This document shows, piece after piece, positions 12,172-12,690 of a stretch of DNA of 64,000 nt (positions are counted from its first letter, which is position 1; the number at the start of each line of letters is the position of its first letter). The position numbers were made by a program, and so were the translations under genes. The stretch covers positions 23,259 through 87,258 of the forward strand of contig DWWU01000019.1 in NCBI GenBank assembly GCA_019119555.1. The letters run 5' to 3'. The notes under the pieces were generated by a model. The model was not told where the DNA came from. It did no database searches and saw only the letters and a list, made by a program, of their open reading frames with translations. Source of the DNA: Candidatus Fusicatenibacter intestinigallinarum. GTDB taxonomy: Bacteria; Bacillota; Clostridia; Lachnospirales; Lachnospiraceae.

Positions 12172-12422
12172 TGGAATCTCCTTTCGCGTTTTCATCTTTC
12201 AGTCTTGCAGTTTCTTTGTATCCTCTTTTCCATATTGTCTGCCGGTTCCGGCAGGCTTCTATGTGTCTCTCACAGTATCACAACCTTTCCGAAGACTGTG
12301 CGGCGCCTGCCGGAGCGGTGAGGCAAACGGTCTGAATGTTCACAGCGGGGGAGATTCCTCGGAGATCGCCGAATGGAAAGCCTTCAGGAGAATTCGGGAA
12401 AGAAGATCCGGAATCTCTGCAG

Positions 12423-12467
12423 AAAAAACAGAGCCGCACAGTATAAATTTTTTCCTGTGCGACTCTG
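12423..12467 (-). terminator. Rho-independent terminator in the AspRS leader (attenuator)
   Basis: Minus strand CAGAGTCGCACAG-GAAAAAATTTATA-CTGTGCGGCTCTG-TTTTTTCT. Confidence 0.85.
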
Positions 12468-12535
12468 CTTTTCCGGGGACTCAGAGCTTTTCCCTGAAAG
12501 ACTCCCGGGGCTTTCGGTCATTTCCTTTTCGTCCA

Positions 12536-12586
12536 CACAGGCACAACCACAAGAAGCGCTTGTACCTGTGAAAAGATACAAGCGCT
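12536..12586 (-). promoter_or_regulatory. Mutually exclusive leader hairpins (1:2 and 2:3) between leader peptide and terminator
   Basis: AGCGCTTGTA/TACAAGCGCT (12555-12586) competes with CACAGGTACAA/TTGTGCCTGTG (12536-12570). Confidence 0.7.
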
Positions 12587-12635
12587 ATCTATCGTCGTCC
12601 CTGTTGGTTTTCCGTAAGGAAATCATCTGACACAT
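12585..12635 (-). CDS. Putative attenuator leader peptide MCQMISLRKTNRDDDR*
   Basis: AGGAGG SD 8 nt upstream of ATG; AAC codon then GAC GAC GAT just before stop; upstream of AspRS gene. Confidence 0.75.
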   Translation of the reverse strand: MCQMISLRKTNRDDDR

Positions 12636-12655
12636 AAACAACACCTCCTGAATTA

Positions 12656-12690
12656 TGGTAAGGATACCACCGAAAATAAAGATTGTCAAT
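12656..12690 (-). promoter_or_regulatory. Predicted promoter of the AspRS leader
   Basis: Minus strand TTGACA-N17 (atctttattttcggtgg)-TATCCT. Confidence 0.7.

Follow-up and report, generated by a model that had tools for sequence, protein, structure and literature searches.

The archaeal-type aspartyl-tRNA synthetase (AspRS) gene, aspS, of Candidatus Fusicatenibacter intestinigallinarum is very probably under ribosome-mediated transcription attenuation that responds to charged tRNA-Asp, the controlled enzyme being a spare one. The gene lies in the 64,000-nucleotide stretch of DNA analysed here (the window), and the anatomy of its leader, together with the conservation, covariation and predicted switching described below, is drawn from sequence and computation. 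The Asp specificity, the lineage, the spare-enzyme setting and a six-segment RNA chain in which the sensing codons themselves form one segment are new here, and a search of open-licence papers found no description of Asp leader peptides.

Anatomy of the aspS leader

The elements of the locus are collected in Table 1. A sequence-only reading of the same DNA had placed the promoter, Shine-Dalgarno (SD) sequence, leader ORF, competing stems and T6 terminator on the minus strand, and all were found at the coordinates that it gave. An inverted repeat (AGCGCTTGTA/TACAAGCGCT) lies 3' of the leader ORF and is followed by further complementary segments, the terminator and aspS. The locus has an ORF with its own SD, cognate codons clustered ahead of an AspRS gene, and mutually exclusive helices with an intrinsic terminator, as a leader-peptide attenuator should; that the position of the ribosome at these codons picks the fold was found by computation. 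The folding energy of the leader RNA (-98.9 kcal/mol) is far below the mean of shuffled sequences (-57.7 kcal/mol; z -10.3), and 0 of 200 shuffles folded as well. The window contains a single copy of the core motif against 0 expected, no Rfam family matched the window leader, and a promoter-like pair also precedes 52 of 70 homologous leaders.

Table 1. Features of the aspS locus in window coordinates
Feature	Positions	Strand	Basis
Promoter-like TTGACA-N17-TATCCT, TG before the -10	12661..12689	-	sequence
Shine-Dalgarno AGGAGG of the leader ORF	12644..12649	-	sequence
Leader ORF, 16 codons, MCQMISLRKTNRDDDR*	12585..12635	-	sequence and homologues
Sensor, three Asp codons GAC GAC GAT	12591..12599	-	codon tally in 70 leaders
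Segment 0 (AAYAGGGACGAC), leader codons ACAGG-G-ACGAC; partner is segment 3 in ribosome-free RNA	12594..12604	-	folding, pairing, covariation
Segment 1 (AGCGCUUGUA), beginning exactly 4 nt past the third Asp codon	12577..12586	-	alignment
Segment 2 (CACAGGUACAAGCGCU), partner of 1 or 3	12555..12570	-	alignment, covariation
Segment 3 (UUGUGCCUGUGUGG), partner of 0, 2 or 4	12533..12546	-	folding, covariation
Segment 4 (UCGCACAGG), pairing with 3 to form the antiterminator, within the terminator 5' arm	12454..12462	-	folding
Intrinsic terminator, hairpin 12469-12427 and T6 12428-12423	12423..12469	-	folding
Probable decayed second uORF, extended SD GGAAAGGUUGUGAU kept, frame lost	12259..12290	-	inferred by comparison with relatives
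aspS, archaeal-type (clade A) AspRS gene, 451 aa	10840..12195	-	profile scores

Conservation of the leader peptide

Homologous loci were taken from the best 80 AspRS homologues among 85,488 species genomes. One of these homologues, L017, belongs to Lachnoclostridium phytofermentans. Among the closest 62 (L006-L067), 59 have the leader, and at the three exceptions (L008, L054 and L061) the contig ends 470 nt or less upstream of the gene. Homologue loci and whole-genome matches together gave 70 distinct leaders with an in-frame peptide ending in DDD. The N-terminal part of this peptide varies freely and its C-terminal end reads NRDDD(R). The first Asp codon (D1) is GAC in 69 of 70 leaders, the second (D2) is GAC in 64 and the third (D3) is GAT in all 70, the Asp identity and part of this tally being pre-selected because the searches demanded DDD or GACGAYGAT-like words. 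The picture was unchanged in the first listing, where any Asp codons in any order were accepted. A covariance model that required no such words recovered one more leader, which has DED and comes from another family (f4; MIRLANFQMNRDEDRKRL*). Asp is therefore found without exception at D1 and D3, while D2 is replaced by Glu in one family.

When the leader frame is read, 64 of 70 leaders have an ATG with an SD from which translation could run unbroken to the Asp codons. Neither of the other two frames has one in any of the 70, one of these alternatives being handicapped by the TAG within AATAGG. The first Asp is preceded by 11-12 codons in 55 of the 64 leaders with an in-frame ATG and SD. Segment 1 lies 4 nt beyond the last Asp codon in all aligned leaders, and a 13-nt footprint counted from the first base of D1 ends precisely where segment 1 begins.

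The sensing codons as an RNA segment

Segment 3 (GUUGU-R-CCURU) is complementary to the leader codons AAYAGG-G-ACGAC. Segment 0, as we call this stretch of codons, mimics segment 2, and helix 0:3 encloses helix 1:2. Nine of the eleven facing positions of 0:3 are paired in 52-62 of 62 loci, and the outermost position (-6) in 9 of 62. D1 has its first G fixed by the Asp codon, and this base is unpaired in all 62. In a 40-sequence alignment, 95.2% of the cells of helices 0:3 and 1:2 are paired and nine pairs show two-sided changes, a result that 0 of 500 shuffles equalled, although such covariation counts are inflated by kinship among the leaders and, as segment 3 pairs also with segments 2 and 4, are partly common to the alternative helices. 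When the partner strand of these two helices is slid by 1-3 columns, pairing falls to 19-52%. Helix 2:3 is 97.3% paired, and helix 3:4 carries one mismatch in many relatives. The homologous leaders thus keep the Asp codons and the alternating stems, whose absence would have spoken against the sequence-only reading.

The pairing of segment 0 with segment 3 accounts for most of the constancy of the leader codons at the nucleotide level. The codon at the N position is AAY in 54 leaders, CAC in 11, CAT in one and others in four (n=70), and its third base tracks segment 3 (U-A 32, C-G 23, U-G 5, others 2); at the R position, AGG is found in 64 and GGG in four of 70. The Asn codon had been proposed to fit an enzyme that charges both tRNA-Asp and tRNA-Asn, but it is not conserved as Asn: because its shape is accounted for by pairing with segment 3, it lends no support to that idea. 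As a second conserved sensor it was ruled out, since His (12 of 70), Tyr, Thr and others occur at the same position.

Two further observations concern these helices. In one sub-group (L042, L045, L049, L050, L053 and L056), segment 2 contains CACGGC, segment 3 GCCGTG and segment 4 a CCATGG-like sequence, so that a whole helix has changed with matching segments and the switch is retained. All 70 leaders have GAU as D3 (12593-12591 in the window); the last two bases of this codon lie outside 0:3, so that pairing gives no explanation for their constancy, and this counts against the attenuator reading.

Predicted switching

To predict the fold chosen at each ribosome position, transcripts were cut ahead of the 3' arm of the terminator, the ribosome footprint was masked and the remainder was folded. 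With the A-site at the first Asp codon, 1:2 forms and so does 3:4, which appears in 53 of 53 loci (median 13.3 bp), while 2:3 forms in none. These 53 loci are those with a cleanly picked terminator; 17 of the 70 were omitted, mostly for lack of a clean terminator pick. With the ribosome at the stop codon, 2:3 forms in 52 of 53 loci (median 13.9 bp) and 3:4 falls. In ribosome-free RNA, 1:2 is accompanied by 0:3 in 49 of 53 loci and 3:4 appears in 15 of 53; the window RNA folds in this state as 0:3, 1:2 and the terminator. A stall map yields 3:4 only when the A-site lies in a stretch that begins about five codons upstream of the first Asp and ends one or two codons downstream of it; stalls ahead of this stretch resemble ribosome-free RNA and those beyond it resemble the stop. 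At the window locus (L001), masking everything upstream gives a clean switch, with 3:4 of 12.4 bp at D1 and 2:3 of 13.6 bp at the stop; when the footprint alone is masked, the switch is less sharp at the codons next to D1. All of these folds are thermodynamic, with assumed footprints, and do not represent kinetics.

From these folds we infer a leader that is translated, stalls ribosomes upon Asp starvation and terminates transcription in the cell, ahead of an enzyme that serves as a backup. With no ribosome on the leader, 1:2 would form and segment 0 would clamp segment 3, leaving the terminator (4:5) to form and the gene off; untranslated leader RNA is thus expected to terminate because segment 0 pairs with segment 3. 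A ribosome paused at the first Asp codons would cover segment 0 and leave segment 1 free, so that 1:2 could form, and segment 3 would then take segment 4 as the antiterminator and the gene would be on. Given the exact 4-nt gap, a ribosome at D1 would have its leading edge directly at segment 1. A ribosome that reaches the stop codon would cover segment 1, allowing 2:3, and segment 4 would be free for the terminator, turning the gene off. The sequence-only reading is supported as to the competing helices and the stall logic, and its prediction of an antiterminator upon an Asp stall and a terminator fold at the stop was reproduced computationally in all loci tested. However, it lacked segment 0 and would have left the untranslated RNA on.

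The regulated genes and their genomes

The product of the window aspS scores 541.6 bits against NF003483 (archaeal-type aspartate--tRNA(Asn) ligase; cut-off 353) and 373.3 against TIGR00458, which is barely over the cut-off of 368.4; the gene had been read as archaeal-type, and both scores agree. The source genome, which is 75.7% complete, contains two further AspRS genes, namely an archaeal-type paralogue ('clade B'; L002, on C4) and a bacterial-type gene (C37). The clade-B paralogue is 55% identical to the window AspRS and has a T-box upstream (L002 1097-1343, G000:C4; E 5e-15). The putative specifier of this T-box, taken by position in the Rfam alignment, reads AAC (Asn). Thus, with the attenuator at aspS and the T-box at its paralogue, one genome has two controls for two archaeal-type paralogues. 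T-boxes were also seen for the clade-B type at L093-L098 and L101; like that at L002, they fall under the Rfam gathering score yet have E values of 1e-12 to 1e-17.

A separate bacterial AspRS scored over the cut-off in 14 of 14 attenuator-bearing genomes checked, and the regulated gene is an extra copy. At least two bacterial-type AspRS genes or fragments were noted in G362 (C16, C57, C39, C69), G378 (C5, C15) and G039 (C38, C44). AspRS duplication appears to be common in this group of genomes.

The core motif was found in 12 of 397 Lachnospiraceae genomes, always ahead of an AspRS gene, of which 10 are archaeal-type (clade A) and two bacterial-type; a reversed-pattern control gave 0 matches in the same 397 genomes. 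The two bacterial-type genes (in G362 and G279) have leaders of their own, MRYWTYSFLNLNRDDDR* and MYRLKFAKLHRDDDIWRL*. As the switch stands ahead of two unrelated types of AspRS, it tracks function and not gene family. In 247 genomes of the order, the covariance model R1 found the element only in the source genome and in one other family (G039). A weak third match (G614; E 7e-4) covered the middle part only, beside a T-box-like GGGTGGCACCGC, and was taken as chance. No viral carriers of the motif were found. No neighbouring gene is conserved at the attenuator-AspRS loci, where at most four loci share one, and the neighbours give no hint of a drug.

A second upstream ORF in relatives

Between the terminator and the clade-A aspS, 54 loci among L006-L074, L084, L090, L121, L123 and L127-L129 have a second conserved uORF, about 60-400 nt upstream of aspS. 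Its SD is an extended one (GAAAGG-NN-GUGAUC) with complementarity to the 16S 3' end, and it encodes M-x-H-x-D-[DY]-[VA]-x-M-D. All 54 loci retain Asp 10 (GAT 48, GAC 6), and the codon of Asp 5 is GAC in 33 and GAT in 21. A hairpin with compensatory changes directly follows the AUG, and in some loci the stop of the uORF overlaps the aspS start. The second uORF may possibly provide an Asp-linked translational control.

Discussion

Other explanations of a conserved, translated leader have to be weighed against Asp sensing. If NRDDDR were an arrest peptide, it would stall the ribosome on another signal, such as a drug or metabolite, and the RNA switch would work unchanged; the strong conservation of the C-terminal residues speaks for this. 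However, the residues before DDD vary (N/H/Y and R/G), family f4 has DED, the N-terminal part is free, and the N and R positions are accounted for by RNA pairing. The regulated genes, moreover, are two unrelated AspRS types, as plain Asp sensing expects, and we consider nascent-peptide arrest very improbable. Leaders of the ermC type sense slow translation, and a general response of this kind, not specific to Asp, is somewhat easier to entertain but still unlikely: a stall at any codon in the stretch around the first Asp, about five codons upstream to one or two downstream, is predicted to switch the gene on, whereas the Asp codons are the sole amino-acid-level conservation in that stretch and all genes found encode AspRS.

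Control without a leader peptide, either by the synthetase binding its own leader or by a divergent T-box, is the least credible of these explanations, to the point of being hardly tenable. The paralogue in the same genome is under a T-box, and autoregulation of the thrS type is known for other synthetases. However, a T-box at the window locus was ruled out, since neither the window leader nor the homologous leaders gave a T-box match, which confirms the absence noted in the sequence-only reading; the conserved feature is instead a translated ORF, and two unrelated synthetases share the element. Sensing of charged tRNA-Asp by the leader ribosome is therefore the reading that we retain.

The classical attenuators are those of trp, his and pheST in enterobacteria. 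The aspS leader shares with them a leader ORF, tandem cognate codons, exclusive helices, an intrinsic terminator and codon-bearing RNA that pairs when untranslated, but it differs in its six-segment chain (0:3 enclosing 1:2, then 2:3, 3:4 and 4:5), in having 3:4 as the antiterminator and in sensing Asp. Synthetase genes of Firmicutes are regarded as T-box territory. The T-box (RF00230) also controls synthetase genes in these bacteria, including the clade-B paralogue, but it reads uncharged tRNA directly, without translation, and is absent at the window aspS.

Leader peptides are rare but known in Firmicutes, for example the leucine-rich attenuator peptide of S. aureus (PMC5794164). In bacilli, hisZ and a paralogue of hisS are both preceded by a His leader peptide (Naville and Gautheret, 2010; PMC2965389). 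Both cases have a leader peptide in place of a T-box and a duplicated synthetase in Firmicutes; the differences are that the codons are Asp here and His there, that the lineage is another, and that leader codons acting as segment 0 are not known from the His case. Similarly, trpRS1 of Streptomyces coelicolor encodes an auxiliary, indolmycin-resistant TrpRS under ribosome-mediated attenuation (Vecchione and Sello, 2010, as cited in PMC4787780). Both trpRS1 and, by prediction, aspS are auxiliary synthetase genes with ribosome-mediated transcription attenuation at cognate codons, but the amino acid is Asp and not Trp, the host belongs to the Clostridia and not the Actinobacteria, antibiotic resistance has been demonstrated for trpRS1 only, and the likeness concerns the type of control.

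The simplest reading of the regulated gene is a stand-alone spare AspRS, made when charged tRNA-Asp is short. One idea, by analogy with trpRS1, is that the spare enzyme might confer resistance to AspRS inhibitors, since diverse bacteria naturally produce microcin-C-like compounds, which inhibit AspRS (PMC9239234). We tentatively put forward a broader proposal, which we hold to be possible but doubtful: that a portable Asp-sensing cassette of Lachnospiraceae has been joined to at least two unrelated AspRS types as an inducible spare enzyme, probably against natural AspRS inhibitors (microcin-C-like Trojan-horse nucleotides), with the second Asp-containing uORF (MxHxD[DY][VA]xMD) adding a translational checkpoint in many relatives.

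In summary, a widespread and well-conserved Asp leader-peptide attenuator would operate in a genome where a T-box controls a paralogue, so that RNA control would follow what a gene does and not its ancestry. The prediction is that gut bacteria keep a second, inducible AspRS.
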